NCBI RefSeq assembly: GCF_039555335.1 | Contig: NC_092637.1 | Coordinates: 45,029,613-45,093,612 of the forward strand | Length of the DNA stretch: 64,000 nucleotides | Direction of reading: 5' to 3' | Origin: Amphiura filiformis | Taxonomy: Eukaryota; Echinodermata; Ophiuroidea; Amphilepidida; Amphiuridae | Shown: in pieces, positions 23,330 to 64,000 of the stretch | Layout: each line of letters opens with the position of its first letter | Numbering within the stretch: the stretch's first letter is position 1 | Made by a program: the position numbers and the translations under genes | The notes under the pieces: model-generated | Told to the model about the DNA's origin: nothing | Database searches by the model: none | What the model saw: only the letters and a program-made list of their open reading frames with translations

Positions 23330-25150
23330 CTCAGCTATGTTGTTTGAGGCAGAAGATGCAATTTTAAGGTATTTCGTCTCGGACCAGAAGTAATCCCTGA
23401 AGGACCTTTGACTTCAAATAAAAAATACCACTACACTGGGTAACAGCAATTCATGTGTGATCATACCGGCTTTTTGCTATGTTTTTAATGGCTAAAAAAA
23501 TTGTTGACGGTATTTTGTTTTAGACCGGAAGTGACCCCTTAATGACCTTTGGCCCAAATAAAAAATACCACACATAGAGTTGGTAATAATATTTCATGGG
23601 TGAACATACCGTCACTATGGTATGTTTTACTTGACTAATAAAAATTGTATTTGGTTTTAGACCGGAAGTGGATTTTTAATCACTTTTAACCCCAAATTTG
23701 TGAACACCCTATAGACACTGGCTAATGTTAATGCATGTGTGAACATACCGGCTCTCTGCTATGTTTTTCCTGGCTAACAAAAATTGTTGAAGGTATTTTG
23801 TTTTAGACTGGAAGTGACCCCTTAATGACCTTTGACCCTTAATGACCTTTGACCCCAAATAAAAAAAATCACATATACACTGCGTAACAACAATTCATGT
23901 GTAAACATGACGGCTCTCTGCTATAGTTTTCCTTGCTAAACAAATTATTGACAGTGTTTTGTTTTTAGACTGGAAGTGACCCCTTAATGACCTCTGACCC
24001 CAAAAAATACCACACATAAACGTAGCAACAATAATTCATGTGTGATCATACCGTCACTGTGGTATGTTTTATTTTACTTGGGTAATAAAAATCGTTGAAG
24101 GTATTTGGTTTTAGACCGGAAGTGACCCCTTAATGTTAACACCCTATAGACACTGGCATGTGTGCAAGTGGCATCACTCTGCTTTGTTTTTTGTGGCAGA
24201 AGAAGCATTTTGAAGATTTTTTTGTCTTGGACCAGAAGTGACCCCTTAATGACATTTGACCAGAAATTTGTTAACCCCTAATAGGCATTGATTAACAACA
24301 ATGCTTTTGTGCAAGTGTCGTCGCTGTACTGTGTAACTTTAGACAGAATTTAATTTTTGAATTTTTTTAAATTTCAGACCAGAAATGACCCCTTTAATGA
24401 CCTTTGACTCCAAATCTGTGAACACCCCATAGGCACATGCTAATGTCAATGCATGTGTGCAAGTGGCGTCACTGTGCTATGTTATTTGTAGAAGAAGCAT
24501 ATTTAGTGTCAAAAAATCACATTTTTGGCCGTAAACCGGAAGTAGCTACCTCTTAATGACCTTTGACCCTAAATCTGTGAACACCCCTAAGGCACAGCGT
24601 AACAGCAATGCACATGTACAAGTGGCGTCATTGTGTGATGTTGCTTGTGGAAGAAGCAGCAGATTGACAGAAGAAGAAGGAACTATATAGTTGTCCGCAG
24701 ACAACAAACAAGACGGCATGAAGGTCAGATGGCTGAATGAAAGTTAGGTCTATGTCATCCGTCTCCCGTAGGTCGAGATACAGCCACTTTTCCGCAATTT
24801 TAAACATTTTACCGTGTGTCAGAAATGACCTTAGATGACCTTTGACCCCTACCCTGGGTCACGAATGTCATTAAATGTATTTTTCTTGTGTTCAGAGTGT
24901 CACAAGGAACATTTATATTAATTTTCAGCTTCATCCAAGCATGTCGGTCGATTAAAATTTTTGACCTTTGACCCCTATAACTTGACCCCTGTGTCACGGA
25001 TGTGGTTAACTGCACTTGCATTATGCTTAGAATGCCATAATGAACATTTCTGGTGATTTCCAGCTGAATCGGAACTTATATATGGATTTTCAACTTTTTG
25101 AACTTTGACCTTTAAAATTTTAAACATTTTTTGCAAATTTGACGTTTAGA
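23330..25150 (+). repeat. Satellite, forward orientation, divergent left part
   Basis: Monomers of roughly 150 bp (some longer) with GACCGGAAGTGACCCCTTAA, TGACCTTTGACCCC, AACACCCTATAGACACTGG, AATG/CATGTGTG and TATGTTTTTC. They are more diverged than the array further right, as expected at a satellite edge. Perfect TGACCTTTGACC (DR1) sites are visible for example at about 23827, 23845, 24558, 24834 and 24961. No genes. Confidence 0.85.
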
Positions 25151-25800
25151 CCTCCTTAATGACCTTTTACCCAATATAAAAAAAAACACCTCATATACAC
25201 CGAGAAAATGCATTGTTACAGTTTAAATAACAAAAATCTACTATGCTTAGTTATGGAGATAAAAATTATTTTATTATAACTGCGGCAGGTCCTGGACAGT
25301 ACCTGAATCCAGTCAGAAGCTATCTCATTGGGCGATGAAAATATAATACGAAAAGCATAGAAATATCCAAAACTATGGAACAATTTAGAGTCTCATTTTG
25401 TAAGGAATTTCTATCTGAAATCCCTCAGGTAATTCTGGCTAGAAATACCCGAAATATCGAATCATGCTGTAAACATCTGAACATGTTAAACACCATCTGA
25501 TCTCTTCACTCTACCGTGTACACGGTATAACAATATTGATTAATCGAAACAACTTTGTGAGAGATCAGTGTTACATGTCTTATTGGCTTTTAATGCGGCG
25601 TTCTGAAAAGTAAGCGTGCTAACTAGGAATTAAACAAAATATTAATTCCATACAGCTTAAAACACATAGCAAAGACTTGCAATTAATGGAGTTCACATAA
25701 TTTTCTTTCAGACTTGAAAGCAAGTATACTTTATATGTACCTGCACTTGGTACTATATTAAGTTATTTAGCTTAAATTATTTAGTTATATATAATAAGTT
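25151..25800. other. Unassigned insertion in the satellite
   Basis: About 650 bp without monomer sequence interrupts the array. I found no TIRs, open frames or RNA genes. Confidence 0.45.
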
Positions 25801-28302
25801 ATTTAGTCTAATTGACCTTTGACCAAAAAAAATTAAAATACCGTGCATGCATCGGGTAACATTAATGCATATATGAAGTTTATGTCACTCTGGTCTGGTT
25901 ATGTTTTGAGATAAACACAAATGAACATATTTGATGATTTTTGGTTTTTGACCGGTAGCGACCCCTTAATGACATTTGACCCCGAAACTGTAGACATCCC
26001 AAAGACCCTGTTTGGTAGCAATGCATGTGTGCTAATAACAACACTCTGCTATGTAATTGGTAAAAACAGTGATTTTTTGAATATTTTTAGCTTTCAGACC
26101 GGAAATGACCCCCTTAATGACCTTTGACCCCTTATCTGTGAACACCCTATAGACACCAACCAAAGTCAAGTCACATGACTTGACATCACATGTTATTTGC
26201 GGAAAAAGATACATTTTAGAGTAAAATTTTTTGCCATTGTGAGCAGGTCAAAGGTCAAATGGAGTTCAATGTCATGTCACATGTGGGGACATGGTCAGTG
26301 GTGTTTGTGACCATGTATAACAGAGCTAGGGCGAAACGTGGCAAGTCACGCAAAATGTCACGTGTTGCCAGAAGAAAGAAAGAACCAGTAAGAAACAGAA
26401 CAAGGCGGCAGGTCTGACGTCTTGTAAGAAAGAAAGAAATCATGCAAAAACAATACAAGCCGGCCTTCCAAAGGCCGGCTTGAAAGAAAGAAAGAAAGAA
26501 ATACTAGATATGGTTGCGGTCGCCTGCGACCGCGAGTATGCACTGCCGCCAGGTATTTTTGAAGGTATTTTGTTTAACACCGGAAGTGACCCCTTAATCA
26601 CCTTTGAACCCGCAAAAAATATTACATATAAACTGGGTAACCACAATTCTTGTGTGAACATACCGTTACTGTCCTGTGCTTTCCTTAGGTAATAAAATGT
26701 TTTGTAGGTATTTCGATTTATACCGGAAGTGACCTTTTAATGACCTTTGACCCAAAATCTGTGTACACCCCATAGACATTGTTTAATAACAATGCATGTG
26801 TGCAAGTGGCGTCGTTGTCCTACGTAATTTGTGGGACAAGAAGCATTTTAAAGGTATTTCGTGTTATACCGGAAGTGACCACATATTCACTAGAAATCAC
26901 ATTTCATGTGTGGACAAACTGTTACTGTTCTATGTTTTTCTTAGCTAATAAAACTTTTTGAAGGTATTTCATTTTATACCGGAAGTGACCCCTTAATGAC
27001 CTTTGACCCCAAATAAAAAAAATAACACATATACACTGGGTAACGACAATTTATGTGTGATCATACCGTTACTGTCCTGTTTTTCTTAGCCAATAAAATT
27101 TTTTCAAGGTATTTCGTTTTATACCGGAAGTGACCCCTTAATGACATTTAACCCCAAATTTGTGTACACTCCGTAGACACTGGATAATAACAATGCATGT
27201 GTGCAAATGGCGTCACTCTCTTACGTAATTTGTGGGAGAGGAAGCATTTTAAAGGTATTTCGTTTTGTACCGGAAGTGACCTCTTATTGACCTTTGACCC
27301 CAATTCTGTGTACAACTTTTAGGCACTGGATATAGATGATGCACGTGTGCAAGTCATGTCACGATGCTATGTATTATGTGGAAGGAGAAGCATTTTTAAT
27401 GAAAACCACGTTTTTGGTCATTGACCGGAAGTGGATGACCTTTGACCGGAAGTTGATCATGTGACATTTGTAGCCAGTATCAGTGATGACTGTGTCTAAG
27501 TTAAGTTGATATCCATGAAAGTATGTTAGAGCTAGAGTTATTTTTAAGTTTCAAGAGGGGGTCTGCAAAATGTTGTCAGAATAAACTAGATATGGTTGCG
27601 GTCGCCTGCGACCGCGAGCATGCACTGCTGCCAGGTATTTTTGAAGGTATTCTGTTTAACATCGGAAGTGACCCCTTTGGCCCCGCAAAAATATTACATA
27701 TAAACTGGGTAACCACAATTGTGAACATACCATTACTGTCCTGTGTTTTTCTTAGCTAATAAAATAATCTGAAGGTATTTCGTTTTATACCGGAAGTGAC
27801 CTCTTAATGACCGTTGACCCCAAATTTGTGTACATCCCATAGACACTGGTTAATAACAATGCATGTGTGCAAGTGGCGTCACTGTCCTACGTAATTTGTG
27901 GTAGAAGTAGCATTTTTAAGGTATTTCGTTTTATACCGGAAGTGATTCCTTAATGACCTTTGACCCAAAATAAAAAATACCACATATACACTAGGTAACC
28001 ACAATCCATGTGTGGACATACTGTTACTGTCCTATGCTTTTCTTAGATAATAAAATTGAATGTGTTTCGTTTTATACCGGAAGTGACACCTTAATGACCT
28101 TTGACCTTAAATTAAAAAAACATATATTTACTATGTAATATCAAGTCATGTGTGAACATACCGTGACTGTGTTATGTTTTTTTTCTGGCTAATAAAAATG
28201 TTGAACATTTTTGGTTTTTGACCGGAAGTGACCCCTTAATGACCTTTGATCCCAATTCTGTGTATAACCTGTGTGCAAGTGACGTCACGGTGCAATGTAA
28301 TA
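25801..28302 (+). repeat. Satellite, forward orientation, regular A/B dimers
   Basis: Two monomer types alternate. Type A has TGTGTACACCCCATAGACAC, AATGCATGTGTGCAAGTGGC and TACGTAATTTGTGG. Type B has ATACCACATATACACTGGG, CATGTGTGAACATACCG and TTTTTCTTAGCTAATAAAA. Both end in TTTTATACCGGAAGTGACCC and TTAATGACCTTTGACCCC. Spacing between successive ACCGGAAGTG sites is about 142-150 bp, so the dimer is close to 300 bp. Hairpin sites interrupt at about 26459-26535 and 27590-27618. Confidence 0.9.
26459..26535. repeat. Paired palindromes beside a GAAA tract in the satellite
   Basis: AAGCCGGCCTT-cc-AAAGGCCGGCTT is followed by (GAAA)n, ACTAGA, then GCGGTCGC-ctGCGACCGC. The same arrangement (hairpin, purine tract, ACTAGA, hairpin) recurs with different stem sequences elsewhere in the satellite (30254, 31044, 32903-33020). 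The second hairpin also recurs at 27598. Confidence 0.75.
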
Positions 28303-29642
28303 CAGGGTGTCCCAGAATGATTTATACCGGGAAAGTTGGATTTTTCTAGGTATGAAGAGCATTGCTATTGGTAGTATTGTTTTAATTTCTAAAATTTACA
28401 TATATTTAGCTTTCTTAGAAATTTTAGATTTTAGAAATAGGACGTTTCTAATAGAAGTTACAGGATATTGCGTAAATATGGTGAATTTCAAGTTTTGACA
28501 AAACAATTTTGAAAACCTGTAAAATTTCAGCACAAAAGTTATTTGGAAAATGTTATGCAGGTATATTTGTGCGTCCTGTTCTTAATTCTCTAAAATGGCG
28601 ATATCTATCGATTATTTATGATGTTGCAAAGCAATCCTTGTATGGAATAAAGGATTTGTTACGCTTGAGTGACCTTATCCTATTCTTTATTAGGCAGCGG
28701 TTTTGAAGACAATTATTGTGGTGTGTGAGTTTCAACATTTGAAATGCCGGCAGAGATAGATTTGTCATAAAAGTTCGTGGTTCGTCCTTCGTGTCACAGT
28801 ATGTATTTATGTCCACAGTATATTAGCAAACCCACAGCTACATAACGGAGGAGATTACAATTTGCTGCGAAGGATCCTTAAGGAAGTTATATCCTCTGTA
28901 ATAATGACATTTTTGGGTAAAAATTGTGGTCAAAATCGCATAAAAACTATGTTTTTCAACCTAAGTATCTGAAGTCATATTTAAATGTTTCACTTAATCC
29001 CATATCAAGAATTATTCAGCGTTGTAAGCTCTACATATGTGCCAAATTTGATGTATTTCCTATAAACACTGGCACACTGGTTAAGGTCTTTGCCTTTGGT
29101 GCGAGAGGTCCCGGGTTCAATTCCCCGCAGGACCAAAAGAAATCTCCGCTCTCCCCGTGGTTCATCTGGTAATGGCGGGGCAGATGATCCATGTTAAAAG
29201 ACCTCGTTTACAGGTGGTTCCGATCAGGGTAACGCCCGATTGTCGGCCACACTTGCCTGTTCTGTAAAAATACCTCGAACAGCTATCTACGGCGACCCCC
29301 TTCGTTCACCAGGTCACTTGTGCCTGGCCGAAGTTTCGTCAGCGTTATCTCGAATGTAGGATTTCTCCAATATATTGCACAGTACGGCAGGACGATGGTG
29401 ATAAAGGATCCATGCCCGGGGATCCATGTGCCTTTGCACTGAAAATTACACACACCGTTTTCATCTATTTTCAGTAATATCAATGCCACGCCAAAACGAA
29501 TCAAGCTATTTATATGAAAGTCAAAGAATAAGTAGGAGACATGTCTGTCATTGTACTGCACTAATTAAAATTGGATTCACTGTTGACTAAATATTTTTAA
29601 TATTTTTTTCAAACACGGTATAAATCATTCTGGGACACCTTG
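28303..29642. mobile_element. Tc1/mariner-like element (1340 bp) inserted in satellite
   Basis: Ends CAGGGTGTCCCAGAATGATT and the inverse of AATCATTCTGGGACACCTTG, flanked by TA (28301-28302 and 29643-29644). The satellite reads straight across once it is removed (TGCAATGTAA-TA-TGTGGAAG). No transposase frame is visible; it contains a tRNA-like SINE. The CAGGGTGTCCC end and TA duplication are typical of mariner-type elements. Confidence 0.82.
29070..29345 (+). repeat. tRNA-derived SINE-like insertion
   Basis: A-box-like ACTGGTTAAGGTCTTTGCC, then GGTGCGAGAGG, and the B box GGGTTCAATTCC with 3' GGACC form a tRNA-like head of about 65 nt. A non-tRNA body follows (CGATCAGGGTAACGCCCGAT and onward). 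The right end is not sharp. No target duplication was found. Confidence 0.55.
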
Positions 29643-30445
29643 TATGTGGAAGAAGAAGCATTTTAGTGAAAGTTTTGGTTTCTTACCGGAAGTGGCCTTC
29701 TTTTTACCTTTGACCCCAAATTAAAAAATACCATATATTCACTATGTAATAGCAAGTCATGTGTGAACATACCGTTACATGCTATGTTTTTTTCTGGCTA
29801 ATAAAAAATATTGAACGTTTTTGGTTTTTGACCAGAAGTTACCCCTTAATGACCTTTGATCCCAATTCTATGTACAACTTTTAGATATTGGCCATAGGTG
29901 ATGTACGTGTGTGCAAGTGACGTCACGGTGCTATGTAATATGTGGAAGGAGAAGCATTTTTAGTGAAAATCACGTTTTTGGCCACTGACTGGAAGTGGAT
30001 GATCTTTGACCGGAAATGATCATGTGACATTTGTGGCACCACCCAATGGTCCAGCCTCTTGTCACACTTTCACGATATCCGACGGATACCTAACAAGCGC
30101 TACGAAGCGTGCCTCTTCACACCTTACGAAATACTTACTAGCGTTGCGTTGGGTTGCGTTCCGTTGGAGTTACTTATACTACTCTTATTTCCTCTTACTT
30201 AATAGAGCAAATGTAAAGGTCGGCAGAAGAAGAAAGAAAGAAGAACTAGACTTAGCTGTGGTCTAAGACCACGAATGACCTTTGACCCCAAAATCTACGA
30301 AAATTCCACAGGCATTGCCTTATGTCAATGCATGTGTGCAAATAGTATCACTCTGACATGTTATTTGTGACAGAAGGGACATTTTGCATGATTTTTCATC
30401 TTGGACCGGAAGTGACCCCTTAATGACCTTTGACCCCAAATAAAA

Positions 30446-30498
<53 letters not shown>

Positions 30499-31164
30499 GT
30501 AAACATAATTCATATGTGCACATACCGTCACTCTCCTATGTTTTTCTTAGCTGATACAATTTTTTGAAGGTATATGGTTTTATACCGGAAGTGCCCTCTT
30601 AATGACCTTTGACCTCAAATCTGTGAATGATTCATAGACACTGTGTAATAGCAATGCATGTGCGCAAGTTGCATCACCGTCCTACGTAATTTGTGGGAGA
30701 AGTAGCATTTTGAAGCTATTTCGTTTTATACCGGAAGTGACCCCTTAATGACCTTTGACCTCAAACAAAAAATACCACATATACATAAGGTAAACATAAT
30801 TCATGTGTGCACATACCCTCACTCTCCTATGTTTTTCTTAGCTTATAAAATTTTTTTAACAATGCATGTGTGCAAGTAGCGTTACTGTCCTGCGAAATTT
30901 GTGGGAGAAGTAGCATTTCATGTGCCATGTAGGGGCAAGGTCAGTGATAGTCGTGACCAAGTTAGGTCAAAATCGGTGTAAGCATGTCAGTGCTAGAGCA
31001 AATGAAATGGTCGACAGAAGAAAGAAGAAAGAACTAGACTTAGCTGTGGTCTAAGACCACGAACACAGCCGTGTTGTGACCCCTTGTTGACCTTTGACCC
31101 CAAATTCTACGAAAACTCCACAGGCATTGCCTTATGTCAATGCATGTGTGCAAATAGTATCACT
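29643..31164 (+). repeat. Satellite, forward orientation, continued
   Basis: Further A/B monomers with TATACCGGAAGTGACCCC and TGACCTTTGACC. A (TA)n run lies at about 30448-30496. The palindromic word GTGGTCTAAGACCAC occurs at about 30254 and 31044 next to a GAAAGAA tract and ACTAGA. CRE-like GTGACGTCAC occurs at about 29918, and also at 28280 just before the mariner-like element. Confidence 0.9.
30448..30496. repeat. (TA)n microsatellite
   Basis: About 48 bp of almost pure TA inside a type B monomer. Confidence 0.9.
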
Positions 31165-31936
31165 CTGCAATATCCACGGTGTAAATCGCCCCAAAATGAC
31201 CTTTTACATGGTAAACACTTGAGGATGACCCTCTCTAGTTATTGGCATGAAGATGTTTTACGCAAAAAAATGGAAAGATGAGTTTAAACAATCTGATCAC
31301 CCCCTTCCCAATTACCCATTAGGTTTAAACTGCGTAGCAAAATCATCTTGAGGGATTCAAGTACACATCCCCGAGGGCACGTATAAATGACACGCCTTTC
31401 ATCACACAAAACTATAAACAAGGTACATAAAATGCCTTGTGTGTCGCCGAAAATCCGCACAATTGAAAACATTGTAAACATAACTGCTAGCGGTTGTGCT
31501 TTGTAGAACGTGTGCATTATGTAGTGTAAGGGTTCATCCAATGGTCATATCCTTGATTGATGTCATGTCATTCAGGCGTGGGAAAGTGAATCAACGTTCA
31601 CATGCATGATTTATATGTTTTAGCTGTGAAGAGCACAGTGAAGAGGCGGTGATAAGGAGTCCGGGGAAAGGAGTTAATCACGGTAACCTTCCGATTCCAA
31701 TTGTGTAACCCGTAAAATAGTTCTTTTAAAAAGAAGACATTGAGCTAAAATTGTTACAATTTATACGAATTATTTACTTGATGCAACATAAATGAGTACT
31801 TTAAGCTACTTTAATGAAAAAAGCTAGCAACAAAACGAAAGGCCAATTATACATAGGTATTGATCGATACTATCGAAAGAACCTTTGAAGAAGTATTTTG
31901 AAGGTATTCGGTCAGACATCGAAAGTGACCCCTTAA
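31165..31936. repeat. Left arm of a large interrupted inverted repeat
   Basis: Three consecutive blocks, called P (31165-31549), Q (31543-31605) and R (31605-31936), reappear inverted and in mirror order at 39108-38708, 37732-37665 and 34951-34663. The right arm is broken by three insertions. The sequence itself has no gene; it interrupts the satellite in both arms, so it was part of the array before the inversion. Confidence 0.82.
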
Positions 31937-32442: not shown

Positions 32443-34662
32443 TACTTCCGGTATAAAACGAAATAGCTTCAAAATGCTACTTCTCCCACAAATTACGTAG
32501 GACGGTGATGCAACTTGCGCATATGCATTGCTATTACACAGTGTCTATGAATCATACACAGATTTGAGGTCAAAGGTCATTAAGAGGGCACTTCCGGTAT
32601 AAAACCATATACCTTCAAAAAATTGTATCAGCTAAGAAAAACATAGCACAGTGACGGTATATTCACACATGAATTGATGTTACCCAGTTTACACGTGGTA
32701 TTTTTTTAATTTTGGGTCAAAGGTCATTAAGGGGTCACTTCCGGTCCAAGACAAAAAACATTCAAAATGCACCTTCTGTCACAAATAACATGGCCGAGTG
32801 ATACTGTGTGCACACATGCATTGACATAAGCCAATGTCTATGGGGTTTTCATAGATTTTGGGGTCAAAGGTCATTAAGGGGTCACAACACGGCTGTGTTC
32901 GTGGTCTTAGACCACAGCTTAGTCTAGTTCTTACACAGCCGTGACGTTAGTCACGGCTGTGTCTTTTTTCTTACAGGATCTTCTTTCTTTACACAGCCGT
33001 GACGTTAGTCACGGCTGTGTCTTTTTCTTACAGGTTCTTTCTTCTTTCTTCTTTCTTCTTTCTTCTGTCGACCATTACATTTGCTCTAGCACTCACGTGC
33101 TTACATCAATTTTGACCTAACTTGGTCACAATGATCATTGACCGTGCCCCTACATGTCACATGAAACTCGTGGGGTCAAAGGTCACGTAGGGGTCATAAA
33201 GGTCAAAAACGTGATTTCAACTCAAAATGCTACTTCTCCCACAAATTTCGCAAGACAGTAACGCCACTTGCACACATGCATTGTTATCACCCAGTGTCTA
33301 TAAATCATACACAGATTTGAGGTCAAAGGTCATTAAGGGGTCACTTCCGGTATAAAACCAAATTCCTTCAAAAATTTGTATTAGCTAAAAAAACATAGGA
33401 GAGTGACGGTATGTGCACACATGAATTATGTTTACCTTATGTATATGTGGTATTTATTTGTTTGAGGTCAAAGGTCATTAAGGGTTCACTTCCGGTATAA
33501 AACAAAATAGCTTCAAAATGCTAGTTCTCCCACAAATTACGTAGGACGGTGACGCAACTTGCACACATGCATTGTTATTACCCAGTGTCTATGAATCATA
33601 AACAGATTTGAGGTCAAAGGTCATTAAGGGGTCACTTCCGGTGTAAAACCAAATATCTTCAAACAATTTTATAAGCTAAGAAAAACATAGGAGAGTGACG
33701 GTTTGTGCACACATGAATTATGTTTACCTAATTTATATGTGGTATTTTTTATTTGGGGTCAAAGGTCATTAAGGGGTCACTTCCGGTCCAAGACGAAAAA
33801 CATTCAAAATGTCCCTTCTGTCACAAATAACATGGCAGAGTGATACTATGTGCACACATGCATTGACATAATCCAATGCGTATGGGGTTTTCGTAGAGTT
33901 GGGGGTCAAAGGTCATTAAGGGGTCACAACACGGCTGTGCTCGTGGTCTTAGACCACAGCTAAGTCAAGTTCTTTCTTCTTCTGTCTACCTTTACATTTG
34001 CTCTAGCACTGACATGCGTACACCGATTTTGACCTTAAAATCACATGAAATATTTTGTTACACAGCCGTGCCGCGGCTGTGTCTTGTATCGTACGAAAAC
34101 TTTCTGTCGACCTTTACATTTGCTCTAGCACTCACATGCTTGCACCGATTTTGACCCAACTTGGTCACAACCATCATTGACCATGCCCCTACATGTCACA
34201 GGGAATTCGTTGGGTCAAAGGTCACGTAGGGGTCACAGGGGTCAAAAACATGATTTCAATTCAAAATGCTACTTCTCCCACAAATTTCGCAGGACAGTAA
34301 CGCCACTTGCACACATGCACTGCTATTACCAAGTGTCTATAAATCATACACAGATTTGAGGTCAAAGGTCATTAAGGGGACATTTCCGGTATAAAACCCA
34401 ATTCCTTCAAAAATTTTATAAGCTAAGAAAAACATAGGAGAGTGATGGTATGTTCACACGTGAATTGTGTTTACCCAATGTATATGTGGTATTTTTTTAT
34501 TTGGGGTCAAAGGTTATTAAGGGGTCACTTCCGGTATAAAACGAAATACCTTCAAAAATTTTTATCAGCCAAGAAAAACATAGCACTCTCACGGTATATT
34601 CACACATGAATTGATGTTACCTAGTATACACGTGATATTTTTTTCGGGTGGGTCAAAGGTCA
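32443..34662 (-). repeat. Satellite, reverse orientation
   Basis: The same A/B monomers read on the minus strand: GGGTCAAAGGTCATTAAGG, GGGTCACTTCCGGTATAAAA. About a dozen perfect GGTCAAAGGTCA sites. GTGGTCTTAGACCAC palindromes occur at about 32903 and 33942. Hairpins ACACAGCCGTGAC-gtta-GTCACGGCTGTGT at about 32936 and 32993 are followed by CTTTTTTCTTACAGG; a shorter version is at 34063. Confidence 0.9.
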
Positions 34663-34951
34663 TTAAGGGGTCACTTTCGATGTCTGACCGAATACCTTCA
34701 AAATACTTCTTCAAAGGTTCTTTCGATAGTATCGATCAATACCTATGTATAATTGGCCTTTCGTTTTGTTGCTAGCTTTTTTCATTAAAGTACTCGTTTA
34801 TGTTGCATCAAGTAAATAATTCGTATAAATTGTAACAATTTTAGCGCAATGTCTTCTTTTTAAAAGAACTATTTTACGGGTTACACAATTGGACTTTCCC
34901 GGGACTCCTTATCACCGCCTCTTCACTGTGCTCTTCACAGCTAAAACATAT

Positions 34952-39369: not shown

Positions 39370-39812
39370 CACGCCCCAGCTAGCACATGCATTGCTATTA
39401 CACAGTGTCTATGAATCATACACAGTTACGAGGTCAAAGGTCATTAAGGGGTCACTTCCGGTATAAAACCATATAACTTCACAACAATTTATTAGCTAAG
39501 AAAAACATAGCACAGTGACGGTATATTCACACATGAATTGATGTTACCCAGTTTACACGTAGTATTTTTTATTTTGGGTCAAAGGTCATTAAGGGTCACT
39601 TCGGTCCAAGACAAAAACATTCAAAATGTCCTTCTGTCGCAAATAATAATGGCATAGTGATACTATGTGCACACATGCATTGACATAAGCCAATGCATAT
39701 GGGGTTTCCGTAGATTTTGGGGTTAAAGGTCATTAAGGGGTCAGAACACGGCTGTGTTCGTGGTCTTAGACCACAGCTAAGTCTAGTTTCATTTGCTTCT
39801 GTGTGTGTGCAG
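39370..39812 (-). repeat. Satellite, reverse orientation, short block
   Basis: Three monomers with GGTCAAAGGTCATTAAGG (about 39430, 39577), then GGCTGTGTTCGTGGTCTTAG with the GACCACAGCTAAGTC palindrome at about 39757. The array ends next to a PIF/Harbinger-like MITE. Confidence 0.88.
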
Positions 39813-52029: not shown

Positions 52030-52102
52030 TGCTGGCAGGATGACTCGAACCAACGATATTGACATTAGCAGTCTGATGCTCTACCATTGAGCCATGACAG
52101 CA
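52030..52102 (-). pseudogene. tRNA-like sequence, Lys/Ser-like arms
   Basis: 73 nt on the minus strand: TGCTGTC pairs with GCCAGCA (6 of 7) as an acceptor stem. GGCTCAATGGTAGAGCATC is an excellent A box, CAGACTGCTAATGTC covers the anticodon (GCT-like) and GGTTCGAGTC is the B box. The anticodon and T stems are poorly paired. The D-arm wording is that of tRNA-Lys-like genes. The best candidate of the group, but still probably not functional. Confidence 0.55.
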
Positions 52103-52364
52103 TCTAGTGATGAGGGTCGAGTTTTTAGCTTATACAGTGTTTGTCTGTGATAATACCGCCTCGTGAAAGAAATAAATATAAAATCTCAACTTTTAATTTA
52201 AATTTATTTTATGATTTTCTAACCTATATTTTCTTTAGAGCAGGGACAACTATTTCCCCTTTTATCCAATTTGACCGCTAAATAAGAATCTATATACTTC
52301 TTTTATTACTAATTTAATTCCGCGATTAAGCAATATCAAAGATTAATGTCAAGCATCGCACAAC

Positions 52365-52441
52365 AGATATTTAGTTAGCTTAGTAGTCTTGCACAGTGCT
52401 TTTTAACCGCGAGGTACCGAGATCGATTCCACCGCTGCCTG
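52365..52441 (+). pseudogene. tRNA-like sequence
   Basis: AGCTTAGTAGTCTTGCACAG and GAGATCGATTCCACC are spaced like A and B boxes. Degenerate. Confidence 0.4.
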
Positions 52442-53640: not shown

Positions 53641-53765
53641 CTTCGAGCCCAAGTCCTTTTTTGACCAAGCTTAGCTGAGCCTTTTAATGTTCAATTCCGA
53701 GCCGAGTCCGAGTCCAGCAAAAAAGTGGATTTGGGTTCGGACTTGAGTCCGAGTCCAGACTTGAA
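53640..53765. repeat. Degenerate GAGTCC-type short repeat
   Basis: Words such as GAGTCCGAGTCCAG and GAGCCCAAGTCC recur across about 125 bp. Confidence 0.5.
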
Positions 53766-53937
53766 AGCTACATCACTGCTAAATATACTAAAATATGTTG
53801 AAATTAGTATTGCATAGTCATAATTTTGCACTTGCATCCCAAAATATACCACCTTTAGGCTAGATTCACCATGACCACCAGTATTTAATCTCTTTTTGTA
53901 CTTGTTTAATTAATTTGTTTAATTTGCTCATACCCAT

Positions 53938-54120
53938 AATTAGACCCATACAAGTACCCGTACCCGTACTCATGCCCTATTTTGACTTTGGACCCGTACC
54001 CGTACCCGTACTCATGGACTGGGACCCGGACCGTACCCATGACCTGGGACCCGTACCCATGGCTTGGGACCCGTACCGTACCCGTATTCATGGTCCGGGA
54101 CCCGTACCCGTACTCATGGC
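53938..54120. repeat. (ACCCGT)n minisatellite
   Basis: GTACCCGTACCCGTACTCATG and GGGACCCGTACCCATGG variants recur six or more times. Open frames on both strands here are repeat artefacts. Confidence 0.85.
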
Positions 54121-54310
54121 GGGTCTCAATACTACAAGTCTGCCATGAAAAAGTTCCGCAAATATCAACAGTGCGGCGTCAAGTGCGTTGACATGAGATC
54201 GGTAGAAATTCACTGTGGAGATTCCTCCACTTACCTGGAGCACCACAGGGCGACCGTTACACAAATACTATTAGTAGACAAAAGTTACTGCAGCCGTTTA
54301 AAGAAATGAA

Positions 54311-54598
54311 ATGACTATTGGTATATTTTTGGACTTGTCAAAAGCCTTTGATACAATCGATCATATACTCCTTCATAAATTAGAACACTATGGCTTCCGT
54401 TGTATTGTGTTAGAAATCATAATCAAAATATATTATATGTGGTGTTCCGCAAGGATCAATCTCGGGTCCACTTCTGCTTATACTCTTGTCAATGATATAA
54501 CTAATGCATCTAAAACACTCGAATTGCAGATGATACCACCATTTTGTACTCCCATAAAAACGTAGAACGTCAGACAAACCTGGTTAATGAAGAATTCC
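54311..54598 (+). pseudogene. LINE reverse-transcriptase fragment, part 1
   Basis: [16 protein letters not shown] and [11 protein letters not shown] are the same RT motifs as in the 45-kb LINE. Frameshifts follow, with CGVPQGS and LLVNDI legible in other frames, then ADDTT near 54530. The rest of the RT resumes at 56690 after nested insertions. Confidence 0.75.
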
Positions 54599-54814
54599 TT
54601 GACTTTTGAGTAATAATATTGGGGTTTTTTATAAGAATTTTCCAGTTTAAGTTTGTTTTGAGGATATATATTTTTTTGCTTGTATTTTATGTGTATTTCT
54701 AAATGTTTAGCAGTTTTTAAAGTGCAATATATATTCTTGTTCCAGAGAGGCTGATGGGATGTGAGTGTTATGTTTCTATGCATGTTTTTATGTGAGTAAG
54801 TTTAGCTGTGAGTA

Positions 54815-55812
54815 CAGGGTGTCCCCAAAAAAGAGGCCCCTCATTGCGCCCACTTTTTCCCCTATTTCTGAAAAATTGATCAAATATATTTTGGTATGTA
54901 AAGAAACCTTGAGTCGTTAGCTTTAATAAACCAAAACAATTTTATCAATCGGCTCACAACTTTTGTAGATACTCTTTTAAAGAAATGTACCCGTTTTTCA
55001 CTCTGTCCACGGAGAAGGTTTGGCTACTTCAAAGAAAAAAAGGAGTACACATACCATGTATGAATATCAAACATTCCTCAATGATAACTTTATAATTTTA
55101 TTTATGGAATGGGCTTTACCGGTGGGTTTATGGGCAATGAATTTTGTTATTAGTGTCATTAATTTGTGGGTAAAATGGATGCCGAATGGGACTTCTTTTG
55201 CTTTACTTGCAATTACTTACCTTTTCTTGGTTATTTATGCCTTTTTGTTTTATTATGTTTCTTACTTTGTTGTTTCTTCCTGTCTTTTTTTTATTTACCA
55301 CATAAGTCATTTATCTTTTTAGGATAAAAGGTAGCTCTAAAAGGCTGTTTGGTTTGTCTTTGGTTCTTTTGAAGTGAGTTTACTGTGCTGCTCTGCTCTC
55401 TACTTGGCGAATACAGGTTTCAGACCTGGTCCTCATTGCATCAATTGCGTTGCGTACCATCCTTGTGCGCTGGATACTTGCGAATGCATTCAGTAATACG
55501 TTTGCGAAGATCTTGGATTTTGACACAAAGGAAAAAAATCAAGTGGTGTGAGGTCTGGTGATCATGCAAGCCACTCCACAGCATGAGCCATCCCAACCAC
55601 TCTGTTTGCTATCCGTGGACAGAGTGAAAAACGAGTACTTTTATTTAAAAGGGCATATCTTCAAAAGTTGTGGGCCGATTGAAATATTTGTTGTGGTTTA
55701 TTAAACCTATCGATTAAAGGTTTCTTTACATACCAAAATATATTTAATCAACTTTTCAGAAATAGGAGAAAAAGAGGGCGCAATGAGGGGCCTCTTTTTT
55801 TGGGACACCCTG
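54815..55812. mobile_element. Mariner-like element (998 bp) with degenerate transposase
   Basis: Inverted repeats of about 205 bp starting CAGGGTGTCCC, with TA on both sides (54813-54814 and 55813-55814). On the minus strand near 55610-55500, NRVVGMAHAVEWLA, a stop, then SPDLTPLDFF match the third catalytic-acid region of IS630/Tc1/mariner transposases. The rest is frameshifted or deleted. It shares the CAGGGTGTCCC terminus with 28303-29642. Confidence 0.85.
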
Positions 55813-55917
55813 TATTTTAGGAGTACGTTTTGTATATGAGACTGCATGCTTGCTGATGATTGAGAGTGTAATTTTGTATGTTGCTCGTTTGCCTGTAGGT
55901 AGTAAGTGCTTGAGTTA

Positions 55918-56398
55918 GGGGTGGTGCAATAATTATGTGTACCCCCGGGGTGGTGAATTATAGGGGGGCAAAGATTTTTTGGCAGTCCAAAAGGGGGGGC
56001 AAGCATTTTTGGCAGGTCAAAAGGGGGGGGCCAAGCGAGTTTTGGCAGGTCGAAAGGGGGGGGAGCAATTTTTGGCACAGATATTTTGGGTACCATTTTA
56101 TATTACGCCCTAAAAAGGCGTAGGAAAACGTTAGGAACACGTTCAATTTTGAAAATGTCCTGCTCGCTGCGCTCGCATTATATGATAAGACAATTTAAGG
56201 TTTTAAATTCGGGTTCCCCAAAATCTTGCATGTGTAAGGGGGGGCAAAGATTTTTTGGCATGTCAAAGGGGGGCAAAGGTTTTTGACACATCGAAAGGGG
56301 GGCAAAGATTTTTGGCACGGCCAAAGGGGGGCAAGCGATTTTGGCAGACCATTTTGAGAATTCACCACCCGGGGTACACATAATTATTGCACCACCCC
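55918..56398. mobile_element. PIF/Harbinger-like MITE, second copy
   Basis: Ends GGGGTGGTGCAATAATTATG and its inverse, flanked by TTA (55915-55917 and 56399-56401). Interior GGGGGGCAAGCGATTTTGGCA-like words recur as in 39818-40235. Confidence 0.85.
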
Positions 56399-56689
56399 TT
56401 AGGTAAATAAGTGAGTGAGGATTTCTAATTTGGTTTTTTTTTGCGGCGTGAATAATTTTAAATTAGTTTGGTGTGTTGTGGCAATATCAGTGCTTGATTC
56501 TTGTGCAATATTTTTTTATTTATTTTTTTTATTAATAAGTGTTTTTCTATTACTGTTGTAATTTGATTATGCATGTATTGATTCTGTATGTTTTTATACC
56601 ATGTAAAAAAATACGCAATTTGGCCTTAGGGCCACGAGGTTATTTTTTTAATAAAATTGAATTGAATTGAATTGAATTGAAATAAAATA

Positions 56690-57050
56690 AGCTAGTAAAT
56701 TGTCAATTAATGCCACCAAAACAAATTGGCACACCCAAAATCGCATCGATGAATCAAGACCTATAAATCACACTAGATCATACGGCTTTAGAACAATGCA
56801 TCAAACTAAATTCCTTGGTGTGCTAATAGACGAATGCCTCACTTAGAAATGTCACATTGTGTATCTATAACTATTTCAAGAAATGTCGGCGTCATGAATA
56901 AATTGAAACATTTTGTTCCAAATCGTATTCTATATACACTTTACTGTTCGTTAATATTACCTTACCTGAATTATGGAATACTTTATTGGGAAATACATGT
57001 AAAACTTATTACTTAAATAAAGTGGTAAAGCTTCAAAAATGTGCTATATG
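56690..57050 (+). pseudogene. LINE reverse-transcriptase fragment, part 2
   Basis: SKLSINATKTNW, then TKFLGVLIDECLT, a stop, and VGVMNKLKHFVPNRILYTLY and SLILPYLNYGILYW are the RT thumb motifs that follow part 1. Disabled by stops. Duplicated at 58400-58761. Confidence 0.75.
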
Positions 57051-57174
57051 AACCGTGGAAAGCAGTCACTATAGAGATCACACAGCGAAATTGTTTTTTA
57101 ATTATATAACGTTTTAAATGTTGAAGATATGTACACACTGGAATTAGGTACTCCATAAATGAGTTGCCCTGTTC

Positions 57175-58368
57175 ATTACATAGCCGTGATTTCAACTCAA
57201 AATCCTTCTTCTCCCACAAATTACGTAGGACAGTGACGGCACTTGCACACATGCATTGTTATTACCCAGTGTCTATGGGGTCCTCACAGATTTGGGGTCA
57301 AAGGTCATTAAGGGGTCACTTTCGGTATAAAACGAAATACATTCAAAAAATTTTATTAGTTAAGAAAATGTCCCTTCTGCCACAAATAACATAGCAAAGT
57401 GGTGCCACGTGCATCCATGCATTGGTATTTTTATTTACGGTCAAAGGTCATTAAGGGGCCACTTCCGATATAAAACGAAATACCTTACATAGCCGTGATT
57501 TCAACTCAAAATGCTTCTTCTCCCACAGATTACGTAGGACAGTGACACCACTTGCACATATGCATTGTTATTACACAGTGTCTATGGGGTCCTCACAGAT
57601 TTAGGGTCAAAGGTCATTAAGGGGTCACTTCCGGTATAAAACGAAATAAATTTTATTAGTTAAGAAAATGCCCCTTCTGCCACAAATAACATAGCAAAGT
57701 GGTGCCACGTGCACCCATGCATTGACATTAGCCAATGTCTATGGGCGTTTTCATATATTTTGGGGTCAAAGGTCATTAGGGGTCACAACACGGCTGTGTT
57801 CGTGGTCTTAGACCACAGCTAAGTCTAGTTCTTTCTTCTTCTTCTGTCAACATTTTGATCAGCCATCGTAGCCACATGCCTTCAGCAATGTTGACCATAC
57901 TTGCTCATTAGGACTATTGGGTGGTGCCACAGATGTCAAATGATCAAATACAGGTCAAAGGTCATCCACTTCCAACTAAAAATGCTTCTTCTCCCACAAA
58001 TTACGTAGGACAATGACGCCACTTGCACACATGCATTGTTATTACCTAGTGTCTATAGGGTCTTCACAGATTTGGGGTCTAAGGTCATTAAGGGGTCACT
58101 TCCGGTATAAAACGAAAAACATTCAAAAATTTTATTTGCTAATAAAAACATAGGACAGTAACGGTATTTTCACATAAATTATGGATACCCTGTGTATATG
58201 TAGTATTTTTTATTTCGGGTCAAAGGTCATTAAAGAGTCACTTCCGGTATAAAACGAAATACCTTTAAAATGCGTCTTCTCCCACAATACATAGGACAGT
58301 GACACCACTTGCACACAAGCATTATCCTTACCCAGTGTGTATGGGGTCCTCACAGATTTGGGGTCAAT
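57175..58368 (-). repeat. Satellite, reverse orientation
   Basis: Monomers with ATTACGTAGGACAGTGACG, GGGTCAAAGGTCATTAAGG and CACTTCCGGTATAAAACG. The GTGGTCTTAGACCAC palindrome lies at about 57805, followed by (TTCTTC)n. Confidence 0.9.
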
Positions 58369-58370
58369 TG

Positions 58371-60081
58371 AATTGAATTGAATTGAATTGAAATAAAATA
58401 AGCTAGTAAATTGTCAATTAATGCCACCAAAACAAATTGGCACACCCAAAATCGCATCGATGAATCAAGACCTATAAATCACACTAGATCATACGGCTTT
58501 AGAACAATGCATCAAACTAAATTCCTTGGTGTGCTAATAGACGAATGCCTCACTTAGAAATGTCACATTGTGTATCTATAACTATTTCAAGAAATGTCGG
58601 CGTCATGAATAAATTGAAACATTTTGTTCCAAATCGTATTCTATATACACTTTACTGTTCGTTAATATTACCTTACCTGAATTATGGAATACTTTATTGG
58701 GAAATACATGTAAAACTTATTACTTAAATAAAGTGGTAAAGCTTCAAAAATGTGCTATATGAACCGTGGAAAGCAGTCACTATAGAGATCACACAGCGAA
58801 ATTGTTTTTTAATTATATAACGTTTTAAATGTTGAAGATATGTACACACTGGAATTAGGTACTCCATAAATGAGTTGCCCTGTTCATTACATAGCCGTGA
58901 TTTCAACTCAAAATCCTTCTTCTCCCACAAATTACGTAGGACAGTGACGGCACTTGCACACATGCATTGTTATTACCCAGTGTCTATGGGGTCCTCACAG
59001 ATTTGGGGTCAAAGGTCATTAAGGGGTCACTTTCGGTATAAAACGAAATACATTCAAAAAATTTTATTAGTTAAGAAAATGTCCCTTCTGCCACAAATAA
59101 CATAGCAAAGTGGTGCCACGTGCATCCATGCATTGGTATTTTTATTTACGGTCAAAGGTCATTAAGGGGCCACTTCCGATATAAAACGAAATACCTTACA
59201 TAGCCGTGATTTCAACTCAAAATGCTTCTTCTCCCACAGATTACGTAGGACAGTGACACCACTTGCACATATGCATTGTTATTACACAGTGTCTATGGGG
59301 TCCTCACAGATTTAGGGTCAAAGGTCATTAAGGGGTCACTTCCGGTATAAAACGAAATAAATTTTATTAGTTAAGAAAATGCCCCTTCTGCCACAAATAA
59401 CATAGCAAAGTGGTGCCACGTGCACCCATGCATTGACATTAGCCAATGTCTATGGGCGTTTTCATATATTTTGGGGTCAAAAGGTCATTAGGGGTCACAA
59501 CACGGCTGTGGTCGTGGTCTTAGACCACAGCTAAGTCTAGTTCTTTCTTCTTCTTCTGTCAACATTTTGATCAGCCATCGTAGCCACATGCCTTCAGCAA
59601 TGTTGACCATACTTGCTCATTAGGACTATTGGGTGGTGCCACAGATGTCAAATGATCAAATACAGGTCAAAGGTCATCCACTTCCAACTAAAAATGCTTC
59701 TTCTCCCACAAATTACGTAGGACAATGACGCCACTTGCACACATGCATTGTTATTACCTAGTGTCTATAGGGTCTTCACAGATTTGGGGTCTAAGGTCAT
59801 TAAGGGGTCACTTCCGGTATAAAACGAAAAACATTCAAAAAATTTTATTTGCTAATAAAAACATAGGACAGTAACGGTATTTTCATACATAAATTATGGA
59901 TACCCTGTGTATATGTAGTATTTTTTATTTAGGGTCAAAGGTCATTAAAGAGTCACTTCCGGTATAAAACGAAATACCTTTAAAATGCGTCTTCTCCCAC
60001 AATACATAGGACAGTGACACCACTTGCACACAAGCATTATCCTTACCCAGTGTGTATGGGGTCCTCACAGATTTGGGGTCA
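58371..60081. repeat. 1711-bp tandem duplication unit, copy 2
   Basis: Near-identical to 56660-58370, including RT part 2 with the same stop. It differs by small changes such as GGCTGTGGTC for GGCTGTGTTC near 59508. Confidence 0.85.
58400..58761 (+). pseudogene. LINE reverse-transcriptase fragment, part 2 (duplicate)
   Basis: Duplicate of 56690-57050 carried by the 1711-bp tandem duplication; the predicted peptides are the same. Confidence 0.75.
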
Positions 60082-63000
60082 AAGGTCATTAAGGGGTCAC
60101 TTCCGGTATAAAACGAAATACATTCAAAAAATTTTATTAGTTAAGAAAAACATAGCACAGTGACGGTATGTTCACGCATAAATTGTCGTTAGCCAGTGTA
60201 TATGTGGTATTTTTTTTATTTAGGGTCAAAAGTCATTAAGGGTTCACTTCCGGTATAAAACGAAATAACTTAGCTAAGGATAGCACAGGACAGTAACGGT
60301 ATGTTCACACAAGAATTGTGGTTATCCAGTTTATATGTAATATTTTTGCGGGGTGATTCAGGGGTCACTTCGTGTGTTAAACAAAATACCTTCAAAAATA
60401 CCTGGCGGCAGTGCATACTTCTTCTTCTTCTTCTTCTTCTGTCAACCATTACATTTGCTCTAGCACTCAAATGCTTACATCGATTTTGACCTAACCTGGT
60501 CACAATGATCATTGACCATGCCCCTACATGTCACATGAAACTCGCGGGGTCAAAGGTCACGCAGGGGTCACAGGGGTCAAAACGTGATTTCAACTAAAAA
60601 TGCATCTTCTCCTACAACTTACGTAGGACAGCGACCCCACTTGCACACATGCATTGTTATTACCCAGTGTCTCACAGATTTGTGGTCAAAGGTCATTAAG
60701 GGGTCACTTCCGGTATAAAACGAAAAACCTTCAAAAATTGTATTAGCTAAGTAAAACATAGCACAGTAACTGTATGTTCACATATGATCTGCAGTCACCC
60801 AATGTATATGTGGTATTTTTTATTTGGGGTCAAAGCTCATTAAGGGGTCACTTCCGGTATAAAACGAAATACCTTTAAAATGCATCTTCTTCCACAAATT
60901 ATGTGGGACAGAGACGCCACTTGCACACATGCATTGTTATTACCTAGTGTCTATTGGGTGTACACAGATTTGGGGTCAAAGGTCATTAAGGGGTCACTTT
61001 CGGTATAAAACGAAAAACCTTCAAAATGTTTTATTTGCTAAGAAAAACATAGGACAGTAACGATATGTTCACACATGAATTGTGGTTACCCAGTTTATAT
61101 GTGGTATTATTTTATTTGGGGTCAAAGGTCATTAAGGGGTCACTATCGGTATAAAACGAAATACCTTTAAAATGCTTCTTCCACAAATTACGTAGGACAG
61201 TGACGCCACGTGCACACATGCATTGTTATAACACAGTGTATGTATGGTGTACACACATTTGGGGTCAAAGGTCAGTAAGGGGTCACTTCCGGTATAAAAT
61301 GATATAGCTTGAAAATGGCCCTTCAGCCACAAAAAGCATAGCAAAGTGATGCCACGTGGACACGTGCATTGACATTAGCAAATGTCTATGGGGTTTTCAT
61401 ATATTTTGAGGTCAAAGGTGATTAAGGGGTCACAACACGGCTGTGTTTGTGGTCTTAGACTACAGCTTAGTTACACAGCCGTGACTAACGTCACGGATGT
61501 GTCTTTTTTCTTACAGGTTCTTTCTTCTTTCTTTCTTTCTTCTGTCACCCATTACATTTGCTCTAGCGCTCACATGCTTACATCGATTTTGACTTAACTT
61601 GGTCACAATGATCATTGACCGTGCCCCTATATGTCACATGAAACCGTGGGGTCAAAGGTCACGCAGGGGTCATAGGGGTTAAAAACGTGATTTCAACCCA
61701 AAATGCATCTTCTCCTACAAATTACGTAGGACAGTGACGCCACTTGCACACATGCATTGTTATTACCCAGTGTATATGGGGTGTACACAGATTTGGGGTT
61801 AAAGGTCATTAAGGGTCACTTCCGGTAAAAAAAAAGAAATATCTTTAATTTTTTTTATTAGCTAATGAAAACATAGAACAGTAACGATATGTTCACATAT
61901 GGGTTGCAGTTACCCAATGTATATGTGGTATTTTTTTATTTGGGGTCAAAAGGTCATTAAGGGGTCACTTCCGGTATAAAACGAAATAACTTAGCTAAGG
62001 ATAGCACAGGACAGTAACGGTATGTTCACACAAGAATTGTGGTTATCCAGTTTATATGTAATATTTTTGCGGGGTGATTCAGGGGTCACTTCGTGTGTTA
62101 AACAAAATACCTTCAAAAATACCTGGCGACAGTGCATACTTCTTCTTCTTCTGTCAACCATTACATTTGCTCTAGCACTCAAATGCTTACATCGATTTTG
62201 ACCTAACCTGGTCACAATGATCATTGACCATGCCCCTACATGTCACATGAAACTCGCGGGGTCAAAGGTCACGCAGGGGTCACAGGGGTCAAAAACGTGA
62301 TTTCAACTAAAAATGCATCTTCTCCTACAACTTACGTAGGACAGCGACCCCACTTGCACACATGCATTGTTATTACCCAGTGTCTCACAGATTTGTGGTC
62401 AAAGGTCATTAAGGGGTCACTTCCGGTATAAAACGAAAAACCTTCAAAATTGTATTAGCTAAGTAAAACATAGCACAGTAACTGTATGTTCACATATGAT
62501 CTGCAGTCACCCAATGTATATGTGGTATTTTTTTATTTGGGGTCAAAGCTCATTAAGGGGTCACTTCCGGTATAAAACGAAATACCTTTAAAATGCATCT
62601 TCTTCCACAAATTATGTGGGACAGAGACGCCACTTGCACACATGCATTGTTATTACCCAGTGTCTATTGGGTGTACACAGATTTGGGGTCAAAGGTCATT
62701 AAGGGGTCACTTTCGGTATAAAACGAAAAACCTTCAAAATGTTTTATTTGCTAAGAAAAACAGGACAGTAACGATATGTTCACACATGAATTGTGGTTAC
62801 CCAGTTTATATGTGGTATTATTTTATTTGGGGTCAAAGGTCATTACGGGGTCACTTCTGGTATAAAACGAAATACCTTTAAAATGCTTCTTCCACAAATT
62901 ACGTAGGACAGTGACGCCACGTGCACACATGCATTGTTATAACACAGTGTATGTATGGTGTACACACATTTGGGGTCAAAGGTCAGTAAGGGGTCACTTC

Positions 63001-64000
63001 CGGTATAAAATGATATAGCTTGAAATTGGCCCTTCAGCCACAAAAAGCATAGCAAAGTGATGCCACGTGGACACGTGCATTGCCATTAGCCAATGTCTAT
63101 GGGGTTTTCATATATTTTGAGGTCAAAGGTGATTAAGGGGTCACAACACGGCTGTGTTTGTGGTCTTAGACTACAGCTTAGTTACACAGCCGTGACTAAC
63201 GTCACGGATGTGTCTTTTTTCTTACAGGTTCTTCTTTCTTTCTTCTGTCACCCATTACATTTGCTCTAGCGCTCACATGCTTACATCGATTTTGACTTAA
63301 CTTGGTCACAATGATCATTGACCGTGCCCCTATATGTCACATGAAACCGTGGGGTCAAAGGTCACGCAGGGGTCATAGGGGTTAAAAACGTGATTTCAAC
63401 CCAAAATGCATCTTCTCCTACAAATTACGTAGGACAGTGATGACACTTGCACACGTGCATTGTAATTACCCAGTGTCTATAGGGTGTACACAGATTTGGG
63501 GTTAAAGGTCATTAAGGGGTCACTTCCGGTAAAAAAGAAATATCTTTAATTTTTTTTATTAGCTAATGAAAACATAGAACAGTAACGATATGTTCACATA
63601 TGGGTTGCAGTTACCCAATGTATATGTGGTATTTTTTATTTGGGGTCAAAAGGTCATTAAGGGGTCACTTCCGGTATAAAACGAAATAACTTAGCTAAGG
63701 ATAGCACAGGACAGTAACGGTATGTTCACACAAGAATTGTGGTTATCCAGTTTATATGTAATATTTTTGCGGGGTGATTCAGGGGTCACTTCATGTGTTA
63801 AACAAAATACCTTCAAAAATACCTGGCGGCAGTGCATACTTCTTCTTCTTCTTCTTCTGTCAACCATTACATTTGCTCTAGCACTCAAATGCTTACATCG
63901 ATTTTGACCTAACCTGGTCACAATGATCATTGACCATGCCCCTACATGTCACATGAAACTCGCGGGGTCAAAGGTCACGCAGGGGTCACAGGGGTCAAAA
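58886..64000 (-). repeat. Satellite, reverse orientation, with ~1.7-kb higher-order repeat
   Basis: From about 60.25 kb the monomers form a higher-order unit of about 1.7 kb. AACTTAGCTAAGGATAGCAC starts units at about 60266, 61987 and 63687 (spacing 1721 and 1700). Each unit has two sub-blocks beginning near CATGCCCCTACATGTCACAT or CGTGCCCCTATATGTCACAT. Units end with (TTC)n, CATTACATTTGCTCTAGC and hairpins ACAGCCGTGAC-taac-GTCACGG (61474, 63185). The array runs off the window end. Confidence 0.9.
61440..61520. repeat. Hairpin pair at the satellite unit boundary
   Basis: GTGGTCTTAGACTAC (near-palindrome) is followed 20 bp later by ACACAGCCGTGACTAACGTC and ACGGATGTGTC, then CTTTTTTCTTACAGG. 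The same pair recurs at about 63150-63230. Both stems carry one shared mismatch not seen in the 32.9-kb versions. Confidence 0.7.

Follow-up and report, generated by a model that had tools for sequence, protein, structure and literature searches.

The window analyzed here, i.e., the whole 64,000-nucleotide stretch of DNA, contains many copies of a monomer of ~146 bp. An nhmmer profile search of the window returned 98 matches, on the minus strand up to ~32 kb and on the plus strand beyond. The sequence-only reading had described a single array spanning 23330–64000. However, the monomers total only 12,030 of these 40,671 bases, and the profile search found no monomers in two large gaps, 34714–39383 and 39779–57191. 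The monomers are distributed over three main regions and part of an isolated element:

23248..31936, minus strand: monomer region A (nhmmer matches), with ~146-bp central repeats belonging to several older element copies
Gaps within 23248..31936, read between matches: interruptions of region A by left modules and a TIR transposon
32444..34713, plus strand: monomer region B (nhmmer matches), with central repeats in the orientation opposite to A
39384..39786, plus strand: 3' part of an isolated element, with three monomers (39384–39778) and a perfect right end
57192..64000, plus strand: monomer region C, with monomers to 63990 in elements arranged head to tail and truncated at the window edge

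An insertion inside the monomer array, at 28300–29645, has 30-bp terminal inverted repeats (97%) and TA at both ends; from its look, we take it to be mariner-like. Two further segments, 31165–31551 and 38708–39107, form an inverted pair with 94.5% identity and adjoin region A and the isolated element.

Two short words recur in the monomers. Exact copies of GGTCAAAGGTCA number 58 in the window (40 on the plus strand and 18 on the minus strand; 40 with a leading G), and exact copies of ACCGGAAGTG number 45 (18 plus, 27 minus); all fall within 23330–64000. We take DR1, DR5, and ETS/GABP, with their usual partner proteins, to be the names that fit these words. There are 48 occurrences in the window of the ETS-family core CCGGAAGT, which are candidate sites. 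RGGTCA half-sites number 75, 40, and 101 in the three main monomer regions, versus shuffle means of 8.1, 3.1, and 9.7. The earlier claim of more than 50 exact words in both orientations stands, at levels far above chance for half-sites. The reported periodicity of ~145–150 bp is also borne out: when neighboring exact DR1 words lie less than 200 bp apart (29 cases), the distance is 141–148 bp in 20. Other details of that reading change. The distance between the two words, given as ~15–20 bp, is 9 bp in the consensus, and a CRE-like word said to occur in a few monomers, GTGACGTCAC, is present but at only two places (28279 and 29917). The statement that most monomers carry the words holds for the DR1 12-mer and not for both words in exact form: among the 88 of 98 matches that span the conserved block described below, GGTCAAAGGTCA is exact in 53, CACTTCCGGT in 44, and both in 25.

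The array had been read as an independent satellite. It is instead the interior of a family of mobile elements, whose carrier modules had been overlooked, and a free-standing satellite is excluded because the ends of the arrays coincide with the ends of elements. By its structure, the array is shown to be the central tandem-repeat core of a putative non-autonomous Helentron-type rolling-circle family (HINEs), with elements nested and head to tail. The left side of an element consists of a 5' subterminal repeat and its inverted copy, a TTC/TTTC run, and a left module of ~110 bp, followed by the ~146-bp repeats; the right side consists of a 3' subterminal repeat, a palindrome, and a CTAG/T end, the slash marking the element boundary. 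The available text of two papers describes this plan for HINEs of oyster, Drosophila, and mite (PMC7492417, PMC4067079).

A scan for a hairpin, a short gap, and CTRR-T gave 12 matches in the window, compared with 1–6 scattered matches in each of 10 shuffles. Eight of the 12 are copies of two repeated sequences, each located at an array end on the monomer strand and each with 8 nt between the palindrome and CTAG/T. A right-end model with a limit of 10 mismatches describes eight right ends in which ACACGGCTGTGT, or a one-base variant, is joined to GTGGTC-TTA-GACCAC or its variant; T follows the right ends, where a HINE is expected to insert into T-rich sequence without target duplication. The 3' subterminal repeat ACACGGCTGTGT is the inverse of the 5' one, and in six of the eight right ends it starts 41 bp before the CTAG end, which lies inside the range of 38–60 bp from the 3' end given for mite HINE families in the available part of one study (PMC4067079). 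The palindrome GTGGTC-TTA-GACCAC lies 12 bp from the end, where HINEs have theirs 8–35 bp from the 3' end. Four left ends start with the inverse of the right-end repeat and continue with an inverted copy (ACACAGCCGTG...CACGGCTGTGT), as expected of the 5' repeat of a HINE; one of them folds as a 13-bp stem (−16.5 kcal/mol, z −7.4). A microsatellite and central tandem repeats, likewise characteristic of HINEs, are present as TTC/TTTC before the left modules and the ~146-bp repeats after them. A canonical Helitron would have a 5' TC, a 3' CTRR behind a palindrome, and insertion between A and T. The palindrome and 3' CTAG/T of the right ends are Helitron-like in this sense; the subterminal inverted repeats point to a predicted Helentron. 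The ends and the tandem unit are as follows:

32933..32962, plus strand: left end, ACACAGCCGTG and inverted copy (pattern match), with the 13-bp stem
32991..33020, plus strand: left end, second copy
61473..61502, plus strand: left end with 5 mismatches, starting 2 nt past the end of the preceding element
63184..63213, plus strand: left end with 5 mismatches, directly behind the previous element's right end
31034..31074, minus strand: right end with 3' subterminal repeat, GTGGTC-TTA-GACCAC, and CTAG/T
32887..32927, plus strand: right end
33929..33969, plus strand: right end with 2 mismatches and CAAG
39746..39786, plus strand: right end
57788..57828, plus strand: right end
59500..59540, plus strand: right end
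61435..61470, plus strand: right end with terminal CTTAG
63146..63181, plus strand: right end with terminal CTTAG
30246..30272, minus strand: right-end palindrome and CTAG/T, without the 3' subterminal repeat
26504..26533, minus strand: second kind of right end, GCGGTCGC-AG-GCGACCGC, 8 nt, and CTAG/T
27586..27615, minus strand: second kind of right end, other copy
61473..63183, plus strand: 1,711-bp tandem unit of two elements with the inner right end shortened; the next unit runs from 63184

The 1,711-bp units from 61473 and 63184 each lie directly behind a right end. At all eight right ends, the array stops inside the conserved block, with the 3' subterminal repeat beginning 1 nt after GTCAC or GTCAG. 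No autonomous partner or Rep protein was found among the eight scanned of 13 long ORFs, which gave only a kinase and a reverse transcriptase. Exact block and right-end patterns had zero matches in viral contigs and in prokaryote genome contigs, as expected for animal sequence, and Rfam had zero matches on the last array.

The described elements closest in plan are HINEs with satellite-like central repeats, such as Cg_HINE of Pacific oyster (Pearl, DINE-1 kin), which have the same left module of subterminal repeat, inverted copy, and microsatellite (PMC7492417, PMC4067079, each in its available text). The available text of the oyster paper gives central repeats of 138–181 bp per cluster, versus 146 bp here, a subterminal repeat and a palindrome in the right module, a fixed array orientation, and a mention of tandem elements with shortened inner copies (PMC7492417). 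It also describes segments of reduced variability within the monomers (PMC7492417). Nowhere does its text use “transcription factor,” “binding site,” or “nuclear receptor” (PMC7492417). The 3' CTAG/T found here resembles that of canonical Helitrons and of a Phytophthora proto-Helentron, as far as the available part of the source describes them (PMC4067079).

Within the monomer, conservation was assessed with 45 non-redundant monomers, drawn from 63 near-full copies among the 98 matches. The conserved unit is a contiguous 33-bp block, GGGGTCAAAGGTCATTAAGGGGTCACTTCCGGT, that occupies columns 58–90 of the alignment. Read as half-sites, the block is GGGTCA-A-AGGTCA-TTAAG-GGGTCA, i.e., a DR1 and then a DR5; the third half-site lies 5 bp past the DR1 and runs into, and overlaps, the ETS word CACTTCCGGT. 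One copy serves as an example:

32714..32745, plus strand: block, GGGTCA-A-AGGTCA-TTAAG-GGGTCA running into CACTTCCGGT

Nuclear-receptor response elements of the DR1 and DR5 kinds repeat the half-site RGKTCA directly, at a spacing of 1 or 5 bp, according to the available text of one study (PMC1785376). Triplets with this putative response-element layout, DR1 plus DR5 with at most one mismatch, number 56 in the window and 0 in each of 10 shuffles. The sequence-only reading had noted the DR1 and ETS words and had overlooked the third half-site. It had also supposed two intact words under constraint in an otherwise diverging monomer. A monomer alignment, named beforehand as the comparison that could refute this claim, shows the DR1 and ETS columns to be clearly more conserved than the others, with the consensus base present in an average of 93% of copies per column in the block versus 76% elsewhere in the monomer. 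Constraint on these columns is thus supported, and that part of the claim survived; the idea of two words with a free spacer did not. The exact DR1 12-mer is intact in 29 of 44 copies, whereas 96 non-block windows of the same width average 7%, with a maximum of 33%; intact copies of the ETS 10-mer number 28 among 45 monomers (against 11% on average and at most 37% in other windows); and the intervening 9 bases are unchanged in 28 of 44 (against 13% on average and at most 40%). The block is contiguous because these in-between bases are conserved about as well as both words.

Conservation produced by a search seeded with the words is excluded. A model built from linker columns only, and hence blind to the block, gave 80 matches, of which 71 extend to the 3' end of the linker; the block (at least 18 of 31 bases) follows 67 of these 71 linkers, with 37 exact DR1 words and 38 exact ETS words. 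Among 5,000 random 50-mers from outside the arrays, 19 scored 18/31 and none scored higher. Each repeat is shown to keep a 33-bp block of three half-sites running into an ETS site while the linkers diverge. The linker itself includes conserved words, e.g., CACACATG with 3.0 parsimony steps.

The distribution of substitutions is informative about when the block is kept. All of this evidence comes from one window, and the p-values are rough because many copies are related. Parsimony steps per column average 2.67 in the block and 5.28 in the linker (Mann-Whitney p 9e-7), with 2.4 steps per column in the spacer TTAAG and 2.33 and 1.83 in the half-sites. The first tree was built on the same linker columns that were scored, and the analysis was repeated with held-out columns in 40 random halves. 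In the held-out analysis, the block had 2.45 terminal and 0.28 internal changes per column, and the linker had 3.86 and 2.08, i.e., internal-to-terminal ratios of 0.12 and 0.54 (Fisher on rounded means, p 1e-6). The DR1 alone had 1.48 terminal and 0.10 internal changes per column (p 0.005). When variants are counted without a tree, 44 in the linker and 0 in the block are present in at least 10 of 45 copies; in the block, rare variants are common and frequent ones are absent. Recombination inside the block would also convert internal changes to terminal ones, and could mimic part of this pattern.

Pairs of copies at different distances were also compared. In hand-picked pairs, some of which share copies, the block is changed at 47 of 634 positions and the linker at 354 of 2,147 when the pair is ~84% alike (p 2e-9). 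For pairs ~91% alike, chosen in the same way, the counts are 3 of 130 for the DR1, 13 of 115 for the ETS end, and 93 of 1,018 for the linker (whole block p 0.08), so the ETS end is not protected at this distance. In duplicates ~1% apart, the block is changed at 6 of 638 positions and the linker at 10 of 1,910 (p 0.25; small counts). A slow-mutating block is excluded, since these ~1%-diverged duplicates change alike in block and linker. Indels are reduced relative to the linker (0.012 per position) only in the DR1 (0.006) among the parts of the block; the spacer and the ETS part each have 0.018. Together, the substitutions suggest selection on copies that keep multiplying, with free decay afterward.

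The uneven conservation would alternatively mirror how two linker types, both attached to a single shared block, descended from few founders with gene conversion, the block itself having no function. Alternating monomer types with unlike linkers yield many of the internal changes in the linker, the evidence is confined to one window, and the ~1% duplicates change alike (6/638 versus 10/1,910). We nevertheless consider a functionless block unlikely: the equal change in the ~1% duplicates also speaks against a block that mutates slowly, the older pairs differ strongly (47/634 versus 354/2,147, p 2e-9), and the block has many rare variants and no frequent ones.

The youngest duplicates also bear on the host-level role proposed in the sequence-only reading, in which the array would serve as a sink for receptors, a cluster of enhancers, or an organizer of chromatin. 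Since they show no visible protection of the block, selection at the level of the element fits better than a host keeping this locus. A host role here is the least supported of the explanations, and we regard it as very improbable: both words are exact in only 25 of 88 block-spanning monomers, and spread of the element already explains the sequence. The dense sites and their roughly nucleosomal spacing do fit such a role, and Alu repeats bind HNF4alpha, with the idea of a sink raised in that work; in its available text, however, the authors also judge that the receptor supply of a normal hepatocyte would change little through those sites that lie in accessible chromatin (PMC3252374).

The left modules carry related words outside the monomers. 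Among 12 hand-picked left modules, GGTCAAAGGTCA is exact in eight, where different spacers adjoin it (CGCAG, CGTAG, or TC before CACTTCC). A ninth differs from it by one mismatch, a tenth carries the DR1 in reverse orientation at a similar position, and the other two are without the region. Two of the modules illustrate this:

33060..33260, plus strand: left module after a microsatellite; its DR1 at 33173 is followed by CGTAG as spacer and then by a third half-site
26170..26385, minus strand: diverged left module, with DR1 at 26245–26257 (plus strand), opposite to the orientation of the element

A further DR1-like word, AGATCAAAGGTCA (one mismatch), lies outside the monomers at 39219–39247 and is followed by TGCAG and AGGTCG, giving the DR1 plus DR5 layout.

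Our best reading, held with evenly balanced confidence, is that the HINE core repeats keep the receptor/ETS-like block as a docking site that promotes the spread of the element, most likely one for host receptors and ETS factors. From the positions of the substitutions, the block would matter to the multiplying element rather than to the host at the locus. As a repeated docking site, it may be bound by host nuclear receptors and ETS-type factors, and docking could then open or activate the element wherever it mobilizes, be that a tissue or a germline stage. The simplest account is host-factor docking, given words that match the full consensus, survive changes of spacing, and are also present in inverted orientation. 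Conservation at the level of the words and at the level of the block can both hold if several factors touch the block.

Alternatively, the block of the same HINE carrier may be read by a Helentron Rep/helicase or be a rearrangement motif, with the likeness to receptor and ETS sites incidental. Recognition by the Rep protein is the main rival to host-factor docking, possible but doubtful. It fits the conservation of the full 33 bp, spacer included, and the ending of arrays inside the block at 8 of 8 right ends. Precedents exist, in the available portions of the papers, in the conserved motifs proposed to promote satellite rearrangement in nematodes (PMC3694981) and the transposase-recognized motifs proposed for oyster HINE repeats (PMC7492417). 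By contrast, diverged left modules that keep the DR1 with other spacers, and once inverted, look more like the site of an independent factor, and the eight ORFs scanned include no Rep.

Several observations tell against host-factor docking. First, TTAAG is conserved like the half-sites, more than receptors alone would need. Second, the ETS end is unprotected in the ~91% pairs, and indels are reduced only in the DR1 part. Third, conserved words such as CACACATG occur in the linker too.

Other repeats are known to spread sites for host factors. In Caenorhabditis, a rolling-circle family of Helitrons spreads the site of one host factor, the heat shock element, with 10 in one element; the factor is a different one, binding and expression were measured there whereas the present sites are candidates by sequence, and here one block is present per satellite-like monomer, unlike the arrangement in those Helitrons (PMC6927752, available text). 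Alu repeats, too, are interspersed repeats that have spread nuclear-receptor sites, both those of HNF4alpha and DR2 retinoic acid response elements (PMC3252374, PMC1785376). They are primate retrotransposons, however, and many of their sites formed only once the repeats had spread, through CpG decay of words that did not match the consensus. Here, unlike in Alu, the ancestral words already match the consensus and have been retained.

Satellite-like repeats in HINEs have been described, and so has the spread of receptor sites by repeats; we found no paper that joins the two. A literature search with subscription journals largely outside its scope returned nothing that combines Helitron, nuclear receptor, binding sites, and satellite, and nothing for the block or end sequences in the forms tried. 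Central repeats are common in HINEs (e.g., in oyster), and to our knowledge their benefit to the element is not known. Retention of the block in multiplying lineages, and not visibly in young residents, raises the possibility that central repeats are factor-docking sites, amplified because they aid transposition. Binding by receptors, if it occurs, would link the activity of the transposon to a hormone-type signal, and every insertion would then plant a complete receptor-site array, comparable to the HNF4/RAR sites of Alu and the heat shock elements of Caenorhabditis Helitrons.

A second tandem family, of ~112 bp, is located at 13960–14640 and 21484–22390, with 20 and 25 half-sites versus shuffle means of 1.7 and 2.4, in DR4 and DR5 spacing. 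It matches the 146-bp family only in short stretches at half-sites (best 26 bp, E 0.005), a similarity that fits common descent and convergence alike. Its half-site columns are conserved at 96% versus 91%, in 9 partial repeats only and with other stretches about as high. As a tentative, possible extension of the docking reading, a Helentron family may have a receptor/ETS composite site in its life cycle, with the repeats as amplified docking units, selected in the lineage of the element itself, through which a ligand-controlled host receptor would set the time and place of multiplication, and with the 112-bp family as an independent case.

Segments 7121–14662 and 14662–22189 are head-to-tail copies of ~7.5 kb with 99.5% identity, either a real duplication or an assembly artifact, and contain a protein kinase ORF (copy scanned, 9580–10467). 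A broken non-LTR retrotransposon on the minus strand, 45537–48822, has a reverse transcriptase domain in one ORF. An interstitial telomere-like (TAACCC)n tract occupies 51528–51688. On the minus strand at 52030–52101 is a tRNA-like sequence (Rfam 38.6 bits; none by ARAGORN in bacterial mode), which lies beside an (AAAT)n tract; the two together, 51936–52101, are probably a tRNA-derived SINE.
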